From Dyella silvae (GTDB lineage Bacteria > Pseudomonadota > Gammaproteobacteria > Xanthomonadales > Rhodanobacteraceae): a DNA stretch of 64,000 nucleotides. Below are positions 278 to 55,359 of the stretch, piece after piece (the stretch's first letter is position 1; the number at the start of each line of letters is the position of its first letter). The DNA lies in NCBI RefSeq assembly GCF_026421305.1, contig NZ_JAPJBQ010000003.1, positions 372,001-436,000 on the forward strand, in the 5' to 3' direction. The position numbers were made by a program, and so were the translations under genes. Under the pieces are notes generated by a model. That model searched no databases. It worked only from the letters and a program-made list of their open reading frames with translations, and had not been told where the DNA came from.

Positions 278-1870
278 ATGGCCGCGACGACGCGGCAGCA
301 CTGGTTTTCTTCCGGCGATCTCAATGGATTTCTCGGCCTGGTCGTCGACAACCTGTCGATCATGGCCTTTCTGTCCACTGCGTTGATCGGCATCTTCGGC
401 TTTCCTGCCGACATCGTGTTTCTGCACATGTTCCCGGGCACGACCTTCGGCGTGCTGCTGGGTAATCTCGCCTATACCGCGATGGCACGCAGGCTGGCGA
501 GGCGGACAGGGCGTGACGATGTCACCGCCATGCCGCTCGGGCTGGATGCACCCACCAGCATCGGCATGGCCTTCCTGGTACTAGGCCCGGCGTTTCTCCA
601 CTTCAAGCAGAGCGGTCTGGACGAGCATGCCGCCGCCATCGCGACCTGGCAGCTGGGCATGGCCTCGCTGGTGATCATGGGGGTGCTCAAGCTGGTGCTG
701 TCGTTTTTTGGCAGTTTGGTGCAGCGGCATGTGCCGCGCGCTGGCCTGCTGGGCTCCATCGCGGGCATTGCCCTGGTGCTGATGGGTTTTCTGCCGCTGG
801 TGGAAATTCTCAAGCTGCCGGTGGTTGGCTTTGCCGGCCTGGGCGTGGTGCTCTACGCGCTCGTGGCGAAGGCACGCATGCCATTGGGTTTGCCGGGCGT
901 GCTGGTCGCCTTTGTAGTGGGGGCGTTGCTGTACTACGGGCTGGGGCCGATGGGGTGGCTGGGCAGCGGGTATCAGCCACCTGCGCCATGGCAATGGCGT
1001 TTCGCCTTGCCCTTGCCGACGCTGCAATGGATGCATGGCGTGCCGGCGGCCATGCCGTATCTGCCGCTGATCCTGCCGTTTGGCCTGCTGATGGTGGTGG
1101 GCGGCATCAATGTGACCGAAAGTGCCCGCGCCGCAGGCGACGACTACCGCACGCGCGACATTCTGCTGGTGGAAGCGTTAGCCACGCTCGTCGCGGGCTT
1201 CTGCGGCGGCGTCGCGCAAACCACGCCCTATATCGGCCAGCCTTCGTACAAAGCCATGGGCGCGCGCAGCGGCTACACCTTGTTGACCGGGTTGTTCGTG
1301 GGGCTCGGCGGCGTGTTCGGTTATCTCTCCAACCTGGTCGAGCTGGTGCCGCTTCCCGTGCTGGCGCCCATCCTGGTCTTTGTGGCCATCGGTATTACCG
1401 TGCAGGCGTTCGAGGCCACGCCGATGCGCTATGCGGCGGCGGTGGTCTTCAGTTTCTTTCCGGCGATTGCACGCATGGTGACGATCAAGCTGAGCGATCC
1501 CACCTATGTGTCGCCCGATCATTTCGCAGCGCTCTATAGCGACCGTGCGCATGGCTTTTCGGAGCTGGCCACCATCGCCGTGCTCGGTAACGGTTTCATC
1601 ATCACCTCGATGATCTGGGCGAGTTTTCTCGTGGCGCTTATCGATGGCCGGACGTGGCGCGCTGCCGGCATCCTGTTGCTTGGTGGGGCGCTCAGCCTGT
1701 TCGGCGTTATCCATTCGGTACAGCTCAGCGGCGGCATCTACCTGCCATGGCTGCTCGACGACGCTTCGCGCGAGATGGCTTGGCAGTTCACTGGTGCCTA
1801 CCTGGTACTCGCCCTGGTGCTGGCTGCCCTGGCAGTGACGGGATCACCCGCACGTGCTCGTACTGCGTAG
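278..1870 (+). CDS. NCS2-type nucleobase/xanthine permease-like membrane protein
   Basis: Predicted inner-membrane transporter of 530 residues, almost entirely hydrophobic helices with short loops, of the xanthine/uracil (NCS2, COG2252-like) type. An early MPLGLDAPT segment and a mid-protein GGINVTESARAAGDDY helix end look like the substrate-site regions of the AzgA-like branch. The later GGVAQTTPYIGQPSYKAMGAR stretch is also typical of that branch. Length fits the family (430-550). The ATG is preceded by GAGG at 264-267 with about 10 bases of spacing, which supports this start. It stands alone on the plus strand. The substrate cannot be read from sequence; purine or pyrimidine uptake is the family expectation only. 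Family placement is by motif memory. Confidence 0.75.
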   Translation: MAATTRQHWFSSGDLNGFLGLVVDNLSIMAFLSTALIGIFGFPADIVFLHMFPGTTFGVLLGNLAYTAMARRLARRTGRDDVTAMPLGLDAPTSIGMAFLVLGPAFLHFKQSGLDEHAAAIATWQLGMASLVIMGVLKLVLSFFGSLVQRHVPRAGLLGSIAGIALVLMGFLPLVEILKLPVVGFAGLGVVLYALVAKARMPLGLPGVLVAFVVGALLYYGLGPMGWLGSGYQPPAPWQWRFALPLPTLQWMHGVPAAMPYLPLILPFGLLMVVGGINVTESARAAGDDYRTRDILLVEALATLVAGFCGGVAQTTPYIGQPSYKAMGARSGYTLLTGLFVGLGGVFGYLSNLVELVPLPVLAPILVFVAIGITVQAFEATPMRYAAAVVFSFFPAIARMVTIKLSDPTYVSPDHFAALYSDRAHGFSELATIAVLGNGFIITSMIWASFLVALIDGRTWRAAGILLLGGALSLFGVIHSVQLSGGIYLPWLLDDASREMAWQFTGAYLVLALVLAALAVTGSPARARTA

Positions 1871-2047
1871 TGGTTCAAACTGAATGTGAGAGTCGTCGCA
1901 ACGACGGGCTGAGGCAAGACGGCCACAATGCGCACGCCTCGTCGCGATGATGTGCGGTGCTCGCCTAGGAAACGGGGCTGCCATCACGCGGCGGGGCGCT
2001 TGCTGGGCAAAGGCCCGCGCCGGCGAGTGGCTTCGCCGGCGGCCGGA

Positions 2048-2500
2048 TCAGCCGCGCCATTCCACCGTGGTGGGGGGCGGGAGGTTCGCCAGATCGGCCA
2101 GATTCATCGAACGCTCCGCACGTTCCAGTGCACTGCAGGCCGATTCCGCGGCGTAGCGCATCAGATAAGCCAGGTGAGCGCGATACTGCGTACCTATGCC
2201 ATGGACGCGGATCATGCCTGCGGCCTCGGCGAGACACTCCAGATCGGAATAGGCACGATCCAGCTCCGTGCTGCTCGAGCACGTGACGAAGGCATGCGCA
2301 TCCGCTGGGTCACGCGAGCGCAGGTTCACCACATCCTCGACCAGACGAGCCGCCTGGCGTGCGGCGAACACCAGCACGTCGGCCGTCGCATGCGACAGCT
2401 CACTATCGGAAACAGCGCGATCCGTCAGCTCGACCAGGCTACGCGTGACAACGAGCAACTGCGTCACGGGGCGTACCCCGCCTTCACCCTGAGTCATCAT
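2048..2500 (-). CDS. conserved-looking hypothetical protein, alpha-helical
   Basis: About 150 residues, mostly helical, with no signal peptide, membrane segment or motif that I recognise. An upstream ATG at 2536 is possible. The one at 2500 follows a strong GGAGGGGG ribosome binding site with 7 bases of spacing, so I chose it; the protein then begins MMTQGEGGVRPV. Composition (many Ala, Leu, Arg, acidic residues, few Trp) and the good ribosome site argue for a real gene rather than a shadow frame. It is a single gene converging on the upstream permease. Function unknown. Confidence 0.55.
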   Translation of the reverse strand: MMTQGEGGVRPVTQLLVVTRSLVELTDRAVSDSELSHATADVLVFAARQAARLVEDVVNLRSRDPADAHAFVTCSSSTELDRAYSDLECLAEAAGMIRVHGIGTQYRAHLAYLMRYAAESACSALERAERSMNLADLANLPPPTTVEWRG

Positions 2501-3533
2501 TCCGGCACCCCCTCCGGAGAAAAGTTGTCCGGCCATTGTCTACGGAGTCGTGGCAATTGTGTATCGGAAGAATGGCTAGGTCGGGAGAGCGGGGCGGCGA
2601 GGCGGCGGGTTCCCTTCCGGGGTGGCGCTGGCGATGAATCTTCAAGGCGGTCAGGTGCTTGGGTGCGCGGTAAGCAAGCCGGGCACCGCGCCGAGGGCCG
2701 ATGCGCCGCAGGGCGATCATCGGACGGGATCAAACATGGAACGGTTTTGACGCAAGGCCTGCGTGCCCCCTCGGGAGCAAAGCCTCATGCAGCTACGTGG
2801 GTCAGGCCTTTCAGGTAGGTGCAGATCAGTGCCGCGCGCTTCTTGTCCATATGACGCATGCGAGCCTTGAGCGTACCCATCAGCGCCTGCCGCACGAGCA
2901 CCCTTCGTGGATGCCGGGGATCAAGCCCGATTTTGATCACCGCTATGGCGTAGGTGCGGTGCACGGTATCCAAGTCGAGAAAGTTAACTATCCAGGTCAA
3001 CCCGGGCCTGACAAGGCCGCAGCTTCTTCGTATGCGTTGTTCGTCGCCACCTGAGTACGGCGACGTCGGGCGCCAGAAAGTAATTTCAGCCAGGCATCTA
3101 CGACCCAAGAAGTTTCTCAAAACCACTTCATTTAAGACGTTTCTGATGTCTTTGGTGTCAGGTAATTCCGAATATGCCTCCTGTGCAAAGGGACTGCATG
3201 GCGCACTTAAAGCCTTCTGGCTACGGCGCCTTTTGTGTACTGCCTGGACGGCCAAACACGCAACGAAGATCTATGAGTTCTATGAGTAGTGTCATGAGAA
3301 TGATCTGCTTGTCTGCGCAACGCCGAGCGGCGTTTGTCAGTCGTTTCGACATCTGCAACACGCCAAGCGCGACGCTGTCGTTGCAGAGAAGCTTTTCCGT
3401 CGCCAGATCGTCCCATCCGCCGTCTCGTTGGACTGCCCATTGATTTGGCCATCCATCGCCGCGCTGTAACGCCATTCACCCCTTTCGCTTAATCACATCA
3501 ATGCCGGGTCATCACCGGGCGTGGAGTACTGCT
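2501..3533. other. about 1 kb without a convincing gene
   Basis: No reading frame here has both a good start and recognisable content. A minus-strand frame at 2785-3255 (156 codons) is the longest. Its C-terminal part, rich in Arg/Lys with a run LKARMRHMDKKRAALIC, is protein-like, but its start is poor and I recognise no family. From about 2940 to 3500 the base composition becomes visibly more AT-rich than the surroundings. This may be decayed or acquired DNA in front of the adhesin gene. Confidence 0.5.
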
Positions 3534-3647
3534 ATGAACACCATCTACCGCATTATCTGGAATGCCGCTGCACGCCGTTGGGTGGTAGCGTCGGAGTTTG
3601 CCAAGGGACGTAAGAAAAGCGGACAGCTGCGCACGGCAGCGGCATGC
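3534..3647 (+). pseudogene. ESPR signal region of a trimeric autotransporter, cut off from its body
   Basis: An ATG at 3534, with GGAG at 3523-3526 and 7 bases of spacing, starts the classical extended signal peptide region: MNTIYRIIWNAAARRWVVAS followed by EFAKGRKKSGQLRTAA. This is the conserved N-terminus (PF13018) of YadA-like autotransporters. Instead of running through a hydrophobic core and an Ala-x-Ala cleavage site, the frame runs into the adhesin repeat DNA one base out of register and ends at 3848. The adhesin body (3598-6654) is in the next frame. This is therefore the orphaned 5' end of the same gene. Confidence 0.8.
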
Positions 3648-6600
3648 CTTGCTATGGGACACCGCCGCGGGCGCGTACAGCGCCACGCACGGCAGCACCA
3701 CCAACAACAAGATCGTCAACGTCGCCGATGGCACCAATGCCAACGATGCGGTGAACTTCAGCCAGTTGGACGCGATCAACACCAAGGGCGCCAAGTACTT
3801 CCACGCCAACTCCACCAAGGCCGACGCTACGCCTACCGGCACGGATAGCATCGCCATTGGCCCTGCGGCCAACGCCAGTGCCACGGAAAGCATGGCCCAA
3901 GGCCTGAACGCCAAGGCCACTGCAAATCAGGCGGTGGCTCTCGGTTCGGGCGCTTCGGCCACCACGGCGCTATCGGTGGCCATCGGCGCCAACGCCGTGG
4001 CCAGTGCCACCACGCTTGGCACGGCCGGTTACAACCCGGGCAAGGGTACCCTTGCTGCCCCCACGGCCTACGGCGAACTCTCCGTAGGCGATACCGGCAA
4101 AGAGCGTCGCATCACCAACGTGGCGGCCGGCCTCAACAACACCGACGCGGTGAACGTCAGCCAGTTGAAGTCTGCCGTGGCCGCCGGCACGCCGGATGCC
4201 TTGCTGTGGGACACCGCCGCGGGCGCGTACAGCGCCACGCACGGCAGCACCACCAACAACAAGATCGTCAACGTCGCCAATGGCACCAACGCCAACGATG
4301 CGGTGAACTTCAGCCAGCTGAGTGAAACCAACACCAACGTCACCAATCTGGACAACCGCGTGACAACGGTGGAAGACAATGTCACCAACCTCCAGGACGA
4401 CGTCACCAACCTCTATAACAAGGGCGCCAAGTATTTCCACGCCAACTCGACCGGCGCCGATTCGAAGGCGCAAGGTACGGATGCCGTGGCCATCGGCACG
4501 AACGCCGTGGCCACCAACGCCAACGACGTAGCACTGGGCGCGGATAGCGTCACCTCCGCCACCACGGCGGTATCGGGCGTGACCTTGGGTGGCAGCAGCT
4601 ACACCTTTGCCGGTGCCACGCCGTCGGCCGCATTGAGCGTGGGCGGGCGTCAGATCCAGAACGTGGCGGCTGGTCAACTCAGCGCCACCTCGACGGATGC
4701 CGTCAACGGCTCGCAGCTGTACGCCACCAATCAGGCCATTAACAGCATCGTCAGTGGCGGTACCAGCACCAAGTACTTCCACGCCAACTCGACGGGTACC
4801 GATTCCAAGGCCAACGGCCAGGATGCCGTGGCTGTCGGCGTCAATGCCGTCGCGGCTGACGCCAACGGCATCGCGATCGGCAATGGCGCCACCACCGTGC
4901 AGGCGGAGTGGGGCCTGATCGGCAACATCGCCATGGGTGCAGGTGCCTATAACCACGGTAACAACGCGGTGGTTATCGGCAACAAAGCGTCGTCGGGTGA
5001 CGAGACCACCTGGAACGAGTGGGGTGGCTCGGTCACGATCGGTAACGGTGCCGTGACTAAGAAGGGCGGCCAGCTGGCGCTAGGCGGCGCTTCTGCCGCC
5101 ACGGCTGCTGGCGCCATCGCCTTGGGCCTGAATGCCGTAGGCTCCGGGTGGTTCTCTACCGCTATCCAGACAGCGGCAGTGGCGTCCGGCGCCAACGCCG
5201 TGGCCATCGGCACAGGTGCCAATGCGGAAGGCTCCGACGCAATCGCCATCGGTGGCAACGGTAGCGAGAGCGATCCCTCGCTGACCGGTGCGAACGCGCA
5301 AGGTGCGCGCGCCGTGGCTCTGGGTTCCCTCGCCAAGGCGAGCGCCGACGATGCCGTAGCACTGGGTAGCAACTCAGTCGCCAGCCGCACCGGCATGAAT
5401 GGCGCCGCCGAATTGTTCAGCGGTACCACCGTGGCATCGACGATGGGTGCCATTTCGGTGGGCGACGCAGGCAAAGAACGCCAGATCACCAACGTGGCCG
5501 GTGGCACGCAGGACACCGACGCGGTGAACGTGCGTCAGCTCAATGCCGTGGCGCAGTCGTCGAGTGATCTGAGCGACCGTGCGGTGAAGTACGACCTCAA
5601 CGCCGACGGCACGCCGACCAGCGCTACCACCGCCGTCAGCAGCGCCACCGTGGGCGATATCACCTACGGCGGCTTCGCTGGCAGCAACCCGAATGGTGCG
5701 GTGAGCGTGGGTTCGGCGGGTAACGAGCGTCAGATCCAGAACGTGGCCGCCGGCCAGATCAGCGCTAACAGCACGGATGCGGTCAATGGTAGCCAGCTCT
5801 ATTCGGTGGCCACCGAGGTATCGAGCATCAGCAGTGCGGTGAACAACATTTCGGGTGGCATCAGCAATGTCACCAACCAGGTGAACCAGAACACCGCCGA
5901 CGTCACCAACATCAAGAACGGTTCGGACGGCATGTTCCAGGTGAGCAAGGATGCCAACACCAGCAAGCCGGTGTCGTCGGGCAAGAAGTCGACGGCCGGT
6001 GGTAACGGTGCGGTGGCTTCGGCTGATAGCAGCACGGCGATTGGCAACAGCGCGCAGGCGACTGCCAGCAACAGTGTGGCGATCGGCGCAGGTTCGGTGG
6101 CGGATCGGGCGAACTCGGTGTCGATGGGTACTGCGGGCGGTGAGCGTCAGATCACCAACGTGGCTGCGGGAACGCAGGCCACTGACGCGGTGAATGTCAG
6201 CCAGTTGCAGGCATCGCAGGCAGGCACGGTCCGTTACGACACCAACGCGGACGGCAGCGTGAACTCCAGCTCGCTGACGATGAACCAGGGTGGCCCGGCC
6301 ACAACGATTCATAACGTGGCGCCAGGTACGGCGGCGACCGATGCGGTCAACGTCAGCCAACTGCAGCAATCGCAGAACTGGGCGAAGAACTACACCGACG
6401 ACCAGGTCAACAAGATGGGCAAGAAGGCTTACTCCGGTTCGGCCGCGGCTATCGCAACGGCCAACCTGCCGCAGGCATACCAACCCAACCAGAGCAGCGC
6501 GGGCGTGGCGATTGGCAACTACCACGGCCAGAACGCCATCGCGGTGGGTGTATCGACCATTACGGAAAGCGGCCGCTACATCTTCAAGGCCAGCGCCACG

Positions 6601-52461: not shown

Positions 52462-52747
52462 TGCGGGTGCCGCATCGCCGGCGTTGCGATGCGGCTGACC
52501 GTTTGGGCGTTGCGGCGCTCCGCATGAAGTTGCGGCGTGCCATCACGGCGCCTAAACGCCCGTCAGGGCAGCGTGATCAAGTAGTCACGTGCTTGGCGCA
52601 TAGTGAAAGCGACAGGCGTCAAAGCGCTTGAACGACATCAGGCAAGCTTGGCCCGGCCATTCATGACTGATGTCGCGGGAAGGGAGGCACGCCTCATACC
52701 GGGCGGGTTTCCCATGGGCAGACGAGTTCGCACGGGAGGGATCGAAG

Positions 52748-53242
52748 ATGAAATCGTACGGTTTGATTGCAGTCTTGCTCGCAGGTCTTCTGGCAGGTCC
52801 GGCGGTTTACGCACAGCAGGCGTCCGCGCCTGCCGGCTCCACGGGACAATGCAAGGACGGCACCTATACCGACAACGCGACCAAGAAGGGTGCGTGCTCG
52901 GGACATAAGGGTGTGAAGGAGTGGTACAGCGCTGCCACCACCGGCGGTGCAGCCGCTGCGCCCGCGCCGGCCGCTGCTGCGGCACCGGCAGCAGCGCCTG
53001 CGGCCAGCGAGACGTCCAAGGCCGCCGCGCCAGCCAAGAGCAGCAAGTCGAGCTCGGAGCCGCCGGCTACGGCTGCACCGGGCGGTGGCCCGGGTCTGGT
53101 GTGGGTGAACGACAGCAGCAAGGTCTATCACTGTCCGGGCGACAAGTGGTACGGCAAGACCAAGGCGGGCTCGTACATGAGCGAAGCCGACGCCAAAAAC
53201 AAGGGTTATCACGCTGACCATGGCAAGGCTTGCACCAAGTAA
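52748..53242 (+). CDS. exported DUF3761-type protein with C-terminal Cys/His module
   Basis: 164 residues from ATG 52748 with GGAGGG 7 bases upstream. Signal peptide ends near AVYAQ. Residues about 32-60 (GQCKDGTYTDNATKKGACSG then HKGVKEWY) are the DUF3761 signature. A long Ala/Pro/Ser linker follows, then a C-terminal module (about 118-164) with VWVNDSSKVYHCPGDKWYGK and CTK end, resembling a small Ada-like or Cys/His metal-binding fold. Function unknown; probably periplasmic. It is followed by a terminator and the first copy of the duplicated segment around the toxin-antitoxin module. Confidence 0.75.
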   Translation: MKSYGLIAVLLAGLLAGPAVYAQQASAPAGSTGQCKDGTYTDNATKKGACSGHKGVKEWYSAATTGGAAAAPAPAAAAAPAAAPAASETSKAAAPAKSSKSSSEPPATAAPGGGPGLVWVNDSSKVYHCPGDKWYGKTKAGSYMSEADAKNKGYHADHGKACTK

Positions 53243-53330
53243 GCCCTGCAGGCGCGTTGTGTTTGCAGAAAGGGCCGGCGCATGCCGGCCCTTCTTTTCA
53301 TGGGTGTGAGGCGTTAGTCGAACGGCTGGT
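53227..53330 (+). repeat. about 100-bp direct duplication flanking the toxin-antitoxin module, left copy
   Basis: Contains the 3' end of the DUF3761 gene (GGCTTGCACCAA), its terminator and a decayed remnant of the ABC permease 3' end (GGCGTTAGTCGA). It aligns with 54182-54286 over its whole length at roughly 80-85 % identity by eye, with the central 32 bp (TTGCAGAAAGGGCCGGCGCA and on) identical. Confidence 0.85.
53272..53298 (+). terminator. Rho-independent terminator after the DUF3761 gene
   Basis: GGGCCGGC (53272-53279) pairs with GCCGGCCC (53284-53291) around GCAT, followed by TTCTTTT. The same hairpin occurs at 54227-54252. Confidence 0.85.
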
Positions 53331-53405
53331 TCAGGATACGCTGGCGTTGGCGGCGTGGTAGGCAGTGGGGTGGCGTAATCACATGAAATCAGCGCTGTGA
53401 AATGA

Positions 53406-53434
53406 TTGTGCTTGTGTATCCAGTTGGATACAAT
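53406..53434 (+). promoter_or_regulatory. promoter and operator of the toxin-antitoxin module
   Basis: TTGTGC (53406-53411), 17 bases, TACAAT (53429-53434). The palindrome TGTATCCAGTTGGATACA (53415-53432; 8-bp arms, 2-bp centre) covers the spacer and the -10, as expected for autorepression by the antitoxin. The predicted start of transcription falls on or next to the toxin ATG. Confidence 0.65.
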
Positions 53435-53440
53435 TGAAGC

Positions 53441-53728
53441 ATGGGCACGATCATTCAGTCCGATGTATTTGCTAAGTGGCTAATGGGTCTGAAGGATCAG
53501 ACCGCAAAAGCGAAGGTGATTGTGCGAGTCAAACGCTTGGCTGCTGGCAATCTAGGTGATGCAAAACACTTTGAGGGCATCACTGAGCTTCGTATCGACT
53601 ACGGTCCTGGCTACCGAATCTATGTCGCCAAGAAGGGTGACAAGCTGTACCTGCTGCTCTGTGGCGGTGACAAGTCTAGCCAGAAGAAAGATATAGAGAA
53701 GGCAAAGAAAATACTGGCGGCAACATAG
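53441..53728 (+). CDS. RelE/HigB-type toxin (addiction module killer protein)
   Basis: 95 residues, highly basic. The pattern FAKWLMGLKDQTAKAKVIVRV, RLAAGNLGDAKHFEGITELR, IDYGPGYRIYVAKKGDKLYL and LLCGGDKSSQKKDIEKAKKI is the HigB-like killer family (TIGR02683), a RelE-fold ribosome-dependent mRNA interferase. Toxin-first order is usual for this family. No ribosome binding site is visible, and the promoter position suggests a leaderless message. It is 57 bp upstream of the antitoxin gene. Base composition is more AT-rich than its neighbours, consistent with transfer. Confidence 0.9.
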   Translation: MGTIIQSDVFAKWLMGLKDQTAKAKVIVRVKRLAAGNLGDAKHFEGITELRIDYGPGYRIYVAKKGDKLYLLLCGGDKSSQKKDIEKAKKILAAT

Positions 53729-53785
53729 CCGTCAGCGAACTCAGGTAGTGCCAGAAAGATCAGAATGATAGAGAAAGGTGACACC

Positions 53786-54172
53786 ATGAACGTGACGTTC
53801 ACAACGTTTGACGCTGCTGAGTATCTCGATAGCGATGAGGCCATTGCGGCTTATCTAAACGAGGTCATTGAGAGCGGCGATCCGGACCTGCTCCTTTCGG
53901 CATTGTCGGATATTGCACGTGCGCGCGGGATGGCGAAGGTCGCCGAAGATAGTGGGCTGGGGCGTGAGAGTCTCTACAAGGCGTTGCGTCCTGGGGCTAA
54001 GCCTGGGTTTGTCACCGTGTCAAAAATCATGGAAGCGCTAGGTGTCCGCATGAAGGTGAAGGTCAAAGTGCCGACCAAAAAGGCGAAGTCCGACTCATCT
54101 GGCAAAAAAATCCTGTCACGCAAGGCTTCCGCCAAATCAGCTCCTGCAGCGAAGCGCCGTAGCGCCGCTTGA
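53786..54172 (+). CDS. HigA-type antitoxin with long basic tail
   Basis: 128 residues from ATG 53786, with AAAGG about 7 bases upstream; an in-frame ATG at 53765 lacks a site. The N-terminal FTTFDAAEYLDSDEAIAAYL and then LSALSDIARARGMAKVAEDS and GLGRESLYKAL match the addiction module antidote family (TIGR02684), a helix-turn-helix protein that binds the toxin and represses the operon. After the HTH, the final 40 residues are a Lys/Ala/Ser-rich histone-like tail (KVKVPTKKAKSDSSGKKI and AKSAPAAKRRSAA), longer than usual for the family of about 100 residues. Confidence 0.88.
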   Translation: MNVTFTTFDAAEYLDSDEAIAAYLNEVIESGDPDLLLSALSDIARARGMAKVAEDSGLGRESLYKALRPGAKPGFVTVSKIMEALGVRMKVKVKVPTKKAKSDSSGKKILSRKASAKSAPAAKRRSAA

Positions 54173-54181
54173 CGTTGTTTC

Positions 54182-54286
54182 GGCTTGCACCAATGGAGCC
54201 TTGCGGGCACATCGTGATTGCAGAAAGGGCCGGCGCATGCCGGCCCTTTTTTCGTGCGCGTGCGGCGTTAGTCGAGCCGCTTGTGG
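54182..54286 (+). repeat. about 100-bp direct duplication flanking the toxin-antitoxin module, right copy
   Basis: Begins with a remnant of the DUF3761 3' end (GGCTTGCACCAA), then the terminator hairpin, then the genuine 3' end of the ABC permease gene on the minus strand (stop at 54268). Matches 53227-53330. Confidence 0.85.
54227..54252. terminator. terminator between antitoxin and ABC permease genes
   Basis: GGGCCGGC/GCCGGCCC hairpin with GCAT loop followed by six T on the plus strand. Second copy of the hairpin at 53272-53298. Confidence 0.85.
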
Positions 54287-55359
54287 AACAGTCGTATCGA
54301 TAGCGTCAGCATGACGGCAATGAAGGCAAGCAACGCCAGGCTGTCGGGCCACAGATCGCTGAGGTCGGCGCCGCGCAGCATGATGCCGCGGATCAGGCGG
54401 ATGAAGTGGGTGAGTGGCAACAGCTCGGCAATCCACTGCGCGGGAGTCGGCATGCCCGCGAAGGGAAACATGAAGCCGGACAGCAGGATCGATGGCAGGA
54501 ACACGAAGAAAGTCATCTGCATCGCCTGGAACTGCGATTTGGCGCGCGTGGAAATCAGCAGGCCCAGCGAGAGGTTGGCGAGCACCAGCAAACTGGCCGC
54601 CATATAGACGTCCCAAAGGCTGCCGCGTAATGGCACCTGAAATAGCCAGGCACCCAGCAACAACACCAGGGTGGTCTGGATCAGGCCGATGCCTGCATAA
54701 GGCAGCACCTTGCCGATCATCAGCTCGGTGCGACTCACCGGTGTGGTGATCAGAAGCTCCATGTTGCCGCGCTCGGTTTCGCGCACGATGGCTACGGCGG
54801 TGAACAGCACCATGGTCATGGTGAGGATCACGCCGATCAGGCCGGGCACGATGTTCACCGCGGAGCGTCGCTCCGGGTTGTAGAAACTGACCACGCTGAT
54901 CGGTGTTTCCGTCGTGGCGTGGAAGTCGTCTGGCTGATTGAGCGGGTACTGCGCCAGTTGCCCGGCGGCGGACTGCACCACGTTGTCGCTGCCGTCCACC
55001 ATCACCTGTATGGCCTCGCGACCGTCGAGCTTGCGCCGCTCGAAGTCGGGCGGTACTGCAATGCCCACGCTGATGCGGCCTTGCCGCAGCAGATCGATAA
55101 GCTGTTGCGGCGTCTGTGCGGTGGCGTGCTGCTCGATCACCTCGCTGGCAAGCAGATCCTGGACCGCCGCGCGCGAGCCCGCGGTCTGCGACTGGTCCGC
55201 CACGGCGGCCGGCAGGTAGCGCAGGTTGAGGTTGATCGCGTAACCGAACAGGATCAGCTGCAGCACCGGCATGCCCATGATCATGGCCAGCGTTACGCGG
55301 TCCCGCCGCAGCTGGCGGAGCTCCTTGATCATGATGGCCCAGAGGCGGCGAAGGTTCAC
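54268..55359 (-). CDS. ABC-2 type export permease
   Basis: 363 residues of the YhhJ/YbhS/YbhR type. The N-terminal helix is after MIKELRQLRRDRVTLAMIMG. A large periplasmic domain spans about 45-170. Five helices follow with the ABC-2 signature VRETERGNMELLITTPVSRTELMIGKVLPY. It pairs with the ATPase encoded just upstream (4-bp overlap) and the HlyD-type adaptor to form an exporter of drugs or other hydrophobic compounds; E. coli YbhFSR and its CecR regulator are the model. Only one permease gene is present here, so it would act as a homodimer. Confidence 0.9.
   Translation of the reverse strand: MNLRRLWAIMIKELRQLRRDRVTLAMIMGMPVLQLILFGYAINLNLRYLPAAVADQSQTAGSRAAVQDLLASEVIEQHATAQTPQQLIDLLRQGRISVGIAVPPDFERRKLDGREAIQVMVDGSDNVVQSAAGQLAQYPLNQPDDFHATTETPISVVSFYNPERRSAVNIVPGLIGVILTMTMVLFTAVAIVRETERGNMELLITTPVSRTELMIGKVLPYAGIGLIQTTLVLLLGAWLFQVPLRGSLWDVYMAASLLVLANLSLGLLISTRAKSQFQAMQMTFFVFLPSILLSGFMFPFAGMPTPAQWIAELLPLTHFIRLIRGIMLRGADLSDLWPDSLALLAFIAVMLTLSIRLFHKRLD

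Follow-up and report, generated by a model that had tools for sequence, protein, structure and literature searches.

A toxin-antitoxin module flanked by two direct copies of a convergent terminator junction in Dyella silvae

How do small addiction modules enter chromosomes without an integrase or a transposase? This is an open question, and a locus in Dyella silvae bears on it by permitting a clean before-and-after comparison across the genus; a survey of modules of the same family adds loci that are readable at higher identity. Coordinates given here are positions in the window, that is, the whole 64,000-nucleotide stretch of Dyella silvae DNA that was analyzed, except where they accompany the name of another locus such as L036. 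The original prediction, made from the sequence of this window, was that the convergent junction between a DUF3761 gene and an ABC permease gene is present twice, that a toxin-antitoxin module lies between the copies, and that the arrangement reflects insertion with duplication of the target junction. Two observations were named as speaking against it: relatives with two junction copies and no module, and copies that fail to align outside a shared hairpin.

Both neighbors of the module are intact. On the left is a DUF3761 gene (PF12587) on the forward strand (52748-53242), and on the right an ABC-2 permease gene (PF12698) on the reverse strand (54268-55359). The DUF3761 protein also displays a carboxy-terminal 'sunset' domain that scores just at the family cut-off (27 bits). 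A permease that is 71% identical is found in a record titled Bacillus subtilis (L155, JAHREJ010000019.1), apparently from an assembly that is mislabelled or contaminated.

The junction of these two genes occurs twice, with both copies on the forward strand in the same (direct) orientation and a start-to-start spacing of 955. The left copy (53227-53330, 104 nt) contains the last 16 nt of the DUF3761 gene, the terminator region and a decayed 17-nt permease gene end, in which the stop codon is retained and similarity stops approximately 14 nt into the gene; the right copy (54182-54284, 103 nt) contains a decayed 16-nt DUF3761 end from which the stop codon is gone, the terminator region and the true permease gene end. 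The anticipated pattern of one true and one decayed end per copy is thus present, with the refinement that the gene-derived part of each copy comprises only about 16 nt from DUF3761 and about 17 nt from the permease, the remainder being intergenic terminator region.

Of 103 aligned positions, the two copies agree at 87 and differ at 16, and there is one 1-nt indel in addition. Their local score is 120, and none of 1000 dinucleotide shuffles scores above 31. The mismatches are distributed unevenly: none of the 25 hairpin positions differs, while 9 of 42 differ to the left of the hairpin and 7 of 36 to the right (16/78 outside it in total). The resulting divergence, 15.5% overall and 20.5% outside the hairpin, agrees with the 15-20% originally estimated. 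The copies do align outside the hairpin: with the hairpin excised, the scores are 39 on the left and 37 on the right, the corresponding shuffle maxima are 33 and 28, and none of 2000 shuffles does as well on either side. When a 119-nt junction query was compared to the rest of the genome, the longest extra match was 32 nt and fell on the hairpin and its T run; away from the hairpin there were matches of 14 nt and none above, on which ground a dispersed repeat was rejected.

The hairpin, AAAGGGCCGGC..GCCGGCCCTT, is terminator-like and has the same sequence at 53269-53293 in the left copy and at 54224-54248 in the right. It folds on both strands, with energies from -22.4 to -29.7 kcal/mol, and is predicted to act as a terminator; the right hairpin is a candidate terminator that could serve both the antitoxin gene on the forward strand and the permease gene on the reverse strand. 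Since the hairpins are identical in copies that otherwise diverge, it is suggested that both have been kept by selection or by gene conversion. A simple hairpin scan reported the left hairpin and not the right one, probably owing to its rule, under which some of the T run is treated as stem. There were no Rfam matches at gathering thresholds across 52500-55000.

Between the copies lies an inserted stretch of 851 bp (53331-54181, forward strand), which has a GC content of 52.4% compared to 62.7% for the window. As predicted, it holds a toxin-antitoxin pair, both genes being on the forward strand: a RelE/ParE-like toxin gene (53441-53728; TIGR02683, upstrm_HI1419; PF05973), followed by an antitoxin gene (53765-54172; TIGR02684, dnstrm_HI1420; PF21716), whose stop codon is 9 bp ahead of the right copy. 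The GC content is 49% in the toxin gene and 55% in the antitoxin gene, in a window of 63%. Just upstream of the toxin gene is a perfect palindrome, GTATCCAGTTGGATAC (53416-53431), which is probably the operator of the module. The label 'HigBA-type' that was first given to the pair is better replaced by the HI1419/HI1420 families, as both proteins score above the curated cut-offs (toxin, 121.3 bits against 62.85; antitoxin, 113.4 bits against 53.7) and the order, toxin first and antitoxin downstream, is that of HI1419/HI1420 pairs. Nothing out of the ordinary was noticed in the genes themselves; what is unusual is their place and their duplicated edges. No solved structure matched the sequence of either toxin or antitoxin.

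The 3' end of the antitoxin gene (54120-54149) resembles the end of the DUF3761 gene (53223-53251) over 30 nt, a likeness reached by 0 of 3000 shuffles under one scoring, by 4 of 3000 under another and by 0 of 2490 other window segments. It is not read as a third junction copy because the antitoxin tail, which is Lys/Ala-rich and carboxy-terminal, is shared with the homolog in genome G012; the likeness could be due to chance or could be a trace of pairing at the joint.

The state before insertion can be seen in the relatives. The comparison set comprised 20 Dyella genomes, own included, and the 19 relatives are other species, not strains. Both flanking genes are near each other in 13 of the 19. 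Eleven of these have the genes meeting at one terminator junction without a module, with 58 to 318 bp between the last coding residues and a single GC-rich terminator-like hairpin in each (L033, L037 and L039 have other hairpins too). The best half-versus-half direct repeat within these 11 junctions scores at most 21, compared to 120 for the Dyella silvae copies, and none of the 11 has two copies. The module is seen at this junction in none of the 19 relatives, and four of them (G012, G015, G016 and G018) have more distant toxin-antitoxin pairs at other places. Among the genomes compared, the module and the second junction copy are found at this place in Dyella silvae only, and the one-copy junctions of its relatives imply that the module was added to a one-copy junction. 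With all 11 relatives in the one-copy state and the copies aligning outside the hairpin, insertion with duplication of the target junction stands as the best reading.

The remaining relatives show what else can happen at this site. In two of the 19, a peptidase-like frame (L036, 4529-7258, in G010; L038, 4607-7411, in G014; M16 type, named from translation alone) lies between the flanking genes, with the DUF3761 terminator on one side. No junction duplication was seen around it in either genome; insertion at the junction is therefore possible without duplication. REP-like inverted repeats are found at the same junction in L033 (G007) and L039 (G015), so the site accepts different insertions. 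The other six relatives are uninformative: the permease gene was not found around DUF3761, and one contig is only 5 kb.

Comparison of the junctions gives some indication of when the doubling took place. Compared with each other, the intergenic parts of the copies reach a score of 48; compared with the seven shortest among the 11 relative junctions, they reach 30 at most. The copies thus resemble each other more than they resemble these junctions, and they would share an ancestor younger than the split from the seven relatives, or else one of them would have come from an unsampled sister. At four-fold sites, the permease gene has diverged by 0.34-0.44 from its counterparts in the 13 relatives that have it nearby, in every case more than the copies have diverged outside the hairpin (0.205). 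The site classes compared are different and give a rough order only; by this measure the doubling is probably later than the splits from these 13 relatives. Measured against the seven relatives, the intergenic parts of both copies lie at much the same distance, and on this measure neither copy is clearly native.

Of 398 genomes from the order, 9 have DNA matches to the insert, Dyella silvae itself being one of them, and the best non-self matches are 78% over 263 bases and 70% over 640. Alignments to homologous modules begin at 53413-53415, where the palindrome lies, in G094, G423, G118 and G432, which are the four of the eight other matching genomes with matches reaching that far left, and no match extends to the right beyond 54057. 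At its outer edges, over 82 bp on the left and 124 bp on the right, the insert has no DNA match in homologous modules (E up to 1e-10). The DNA shared with these modules runs from the presumed operator to the antitoxin core only, without conserved ends of the element type. A donor carrying the module plus the junction was not found among the 398 genomes. The toxin matches 780 plasmid records, 2 of them at 60-80% identity, and 16 phage records, 1 of them at 60-80%, with the rest lower; a plasmid or phage origin was rejected, as nearly all of these matches are below 60% identity.

Some standard elements can be set aside. Integron attC sites have the core motifs GTTRRRY and RYYYAAC, and neither motif occurs in either copy on either strand; an integron cassette was rejected for want of these core sites in the repeats. 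Terminal inverted repeats were likewise not found, the best match between the 60-nt ends of the insert being 7 nt, and an insertion sequence or transposon was rejected on this basis.

The route that we prefer and consider most likely, with moderate confidence, is homology-anchored additive recombination. The ancestor had a single convergent junction, consisting of the DUF3761 gene, a terminator and the ABC permease gene, and the module joined this site along with a second junction copy. On the incoming DNA, the module would have been next to a junction that came from the same lineage or from a close relative of it. On one side, the incoming junction would have paired with the resident junction; on the other side, the DNA would have been joined without real homology, as in homology-facilitated illegitimate recombination. 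Because such anchored joining is additive, the resident junction would have been retained rather than replaced. Each side still has its true gene end and a predicted terminator, so neither neighbor is broken and the module lies between two such terminators, an arrangement that would allow the insertion to persist. Such a route would need no enzyme of its own. The absence of a donor with module plus junction among the genomes of the order counts against it, as does the peptidase-like gene that sits at the junction in two relatives without a duplication. The copies are too diverged for the joint to be read at base level.

A rather unlikely alternative is that the copies are attL and attR of a larger integrative element, which would have entered at a gene end through a tyrosine or serine recombinase and since been deleted except for the toxin-antitoxin pair. 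Integrative elements commonly occupy the 3' ends of genes, which they restore, and a module of the same family (L179, 1034-2226, in G127) lies between two tRNA-Ser copies, where the duplication of about 195 bp comprises almost the whole tRNA gene and downstream sequence. In G397, the place of the first tRNA is followed, about 5.35 kb downstream, by a stretch that is 95% identical to the L179 antitoxin gene plus second tRNA copy, a spacing expected of a longer island at a tRNA site; L179 is probably an ordinary island. The Dyella silvae locus resembles such islands at tRNA genes and gene 3' ends in that a gene end is restored on one side and a fragment is left on the other. It differs from them in that no integrase or island was seen and each copy holds both ends of a convergent pair. 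No recombinase is present among ten genes scanned at 48.7-57.9 kb (the inserted pair, the two neighbors and six further genes), although one may have been deleted, and the sole tRNA of the window is 45 kb from the insert. An integrase-bearing island is found at the junction in none of the 13 relatives with both genes nearby, and the unmatched outer parts of the insert, 82 bp and 124 bp, also argue against remnants of element ends.

Distinctly unlikely is a break with a long stagger of about 100 nt, filled in on both sides during capture of the module, which would make the repeats a true target-site duplication. The locus has features that such a break would leave, namely one direct copy on each side, nothing lost and a palindromic terminator in the middle of the copy, and long variable target duplications have been described for restriction-modification systems (see below). 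However, we know of no enzyme for this route at the Dyella silvae locus, a stagger of about 100 nt is unusual, and with copies so diverged the outcome is indistinguishable from that of homology-anchored joining.

A single crossover of a small circle carrying the module plus the junction predicts exactly what is seen, a 955-bp unit flanked by the repeated junction, but it is very improbable: no such circle was seen, and with the toxin as query the plasmid records that reach 60-80% identity are the two already mentioned. The least probable history is that the junction was first tandemly duplicated and the module was inserted between the copies later; tandem duplications are common, but this one would require two events, and its intermediate, two copies without a module, is the state that none of the 11 relatives displays.

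The original prediction also held that no standard mobile element is known to give a 100-bp target duplication. A precedent does exist in restriction-modification systems, which are reported to insert with target duplications that are long, vary in length and are 'in the order of 100 bp' (PMC3874152; also PMC3031569 and PMC1643837); in the portions of these papers that we draw on, the pattern is credited to Nobusato et al. 2000 and Furuta et al. 2010. A review, in the part used here, describes restriction-modification systems as sharing addiction and apparent mobility with toxin-antitoxin systems (PMC2654758). In the available text of a Helicobacter pylori study, an inserted element is surrounded by a duplication of 1577 bp, and the explanation given is that one joint arose by homologous and the other by non-homologous recombination (PMC4615327). 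The same kind of recombination model has been proposed for effector-immunity pairs in Vibrio cholerae, in a paper whose accessible text also gives homology-facilitated illegitimate recombination as orders of magnitude rarer than ordinary homologous recombination (PMC5361080), a point against homology-anchored joining in Dyella silvae. In that system, as far as this text goes, a toxin-immunity pair is likewise added beside a conserved anchor and older sequence is left behind; the remnants there are whole immunity genes in the effector cluster, whereas in Dyella silvae a short terminator junction is doubled (PMC5361080).

By analogy, the Dyella silvae locus is best described as a case with a new passenger that works like restriction-modification 'insertion with long target duplication', and not as a new kind of element. 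In both cases a small addiction module without a transposase is flanked by a direct, variable target duplication on the order of 100 bp, and related genomes have a one-copy empty site (here 11 of 11, in other species). The differences are that the passenger is a type II toxin-antitoxin pair (TIGR02683/TIGR02684) and that the copies are old (15.5% different). Furthermore, toxins of the RelE/ParE-like class are thought to act on RNA, so the module would have no obvious counterpart to the cutting of DNA by a restriction enzyme. According to the part of the text on which we rely, such cutting is one of two links from restriction to rearrangement (PMC3031569). We found no report of long flank duplication around toxin-antitoxin modules among the top-ranked papers of an open-access collection, as represented mostly by titles, the openings of abstracts and some passages.

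Similar duplications were looked for around other toxin-antitoxin modules, by comparing the left and right 1000-bp flanks of HI1419/HI1420-family modules from the order with each other. The loci comprised 70 of 90 matches, 61 of 74 further matches and 5 found by DNA (L051-L055), 136 in all, those omitted being mostly low-scoring or at contig ends; L238 (no pair), three duplicates and L234 (short flank) were dropped, leaving 131 modules. Direct flank repeats scoring at least 58 are present at 10 of the 131 modules and in 1 of 3000 cross-locus flank pairs; this cut-off was chosen after seeing the list and just admits L382, and at 60 the count is 9/131. One of the ten, L366, is REP-like by eye and was not counted as a case, which leaves nine, own included. 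The repeat is 104 bp long in Dyella silvae and ranges from 41 to 617 bp in the eight other counted cases.

Gene-end pieces are repeated beside at least three other modules: the end of a DUF885 gene in L378 (158 bp, 92%), that of a type II/IV secretion ATPase gene in L292 (41 bp), and, in L382, a piece from within a coproporphyrinogen III oxidase gene, close to its end (49 bp, at the cut-off). The nine also include L179, the tRNA-Ser site described above. In L198, the repeat is part of a frame of unknown family. In L232 there are two intact-looking paralogous frames, which is a flank duplication and not a gene-end fragment. In L211 (1100-4171, G124), the module lies between two 150-bp repeats of 96% identity, in a vicinity that contains cytidylate-kinase-like pieces (from translation), HicAB-like frames and multi-copy sequence.

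Several controls put these counts in proportion. When placed at random, 8 of 1248 score 60 or more; these come from 4 loci, and of the one inspected from each, three are REP-like and one is paralogous by eye. Shifted placements at the same loci give 4 of 241, from L228 and L211. In controls placed at gene boundaries, repeats are found at 4/27 HicA toxin loci, 0/29 GNAT loci, which are the control without toxin-antitoxin genes, and 2/25 PIN toxin loci, after 3, 1 and 5 loci, respectively, were dropped as short; by eye, one HicA positive is REP-like and one is attC-like. A cruder placement gave 3/27, 0/30 and 0/26 for HicA, GNAT and PIN, and only 2/49 for the HI1419/HI1420 family. Enrichment of the 131 modules over other genes is not significant (9/131 versus GNAT plus PIN, p = 0.51; 10/131 versus GNAT, p = 0.21). 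Flank duplication recurs in the family; given the non-significant differences from the controls, we claim this recurrence and not specificity. In the HicA locus L328 (G137), an 87-bp flanking repeat starts with CTAAC, ends with GTTAGG and resembles integron attC sites.

It is conceivable, if doubtful, that a general process spreads the whole class of toxin-antitoxin modules in the form of bare gene pairs and leaves behind duplications of the neighboring gene end that are long and vary in length, as with restriction-modification systems; the Dyella silvae junction and the DUF885, secretion ATPase and coproporphyrinogen oxidase cases would then be its products. If so, insertion at essential or conserved genes would be self-repairing. 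Also, if the mark is common to toxin-antitoxin and restriction-modification modules, a single recombination route, testable by transformation, would explain both.

Another of the nine, and like L211 and L378 a recent case, is L354 (G423, 1271-3707 of the reversed locus), where the module lies between 617-bp direct repeats of 97% identity. Each repeat contains an intact frame, which makes this a flank duplication and not a gene-end fragment. In so recent a case the joints could be read.
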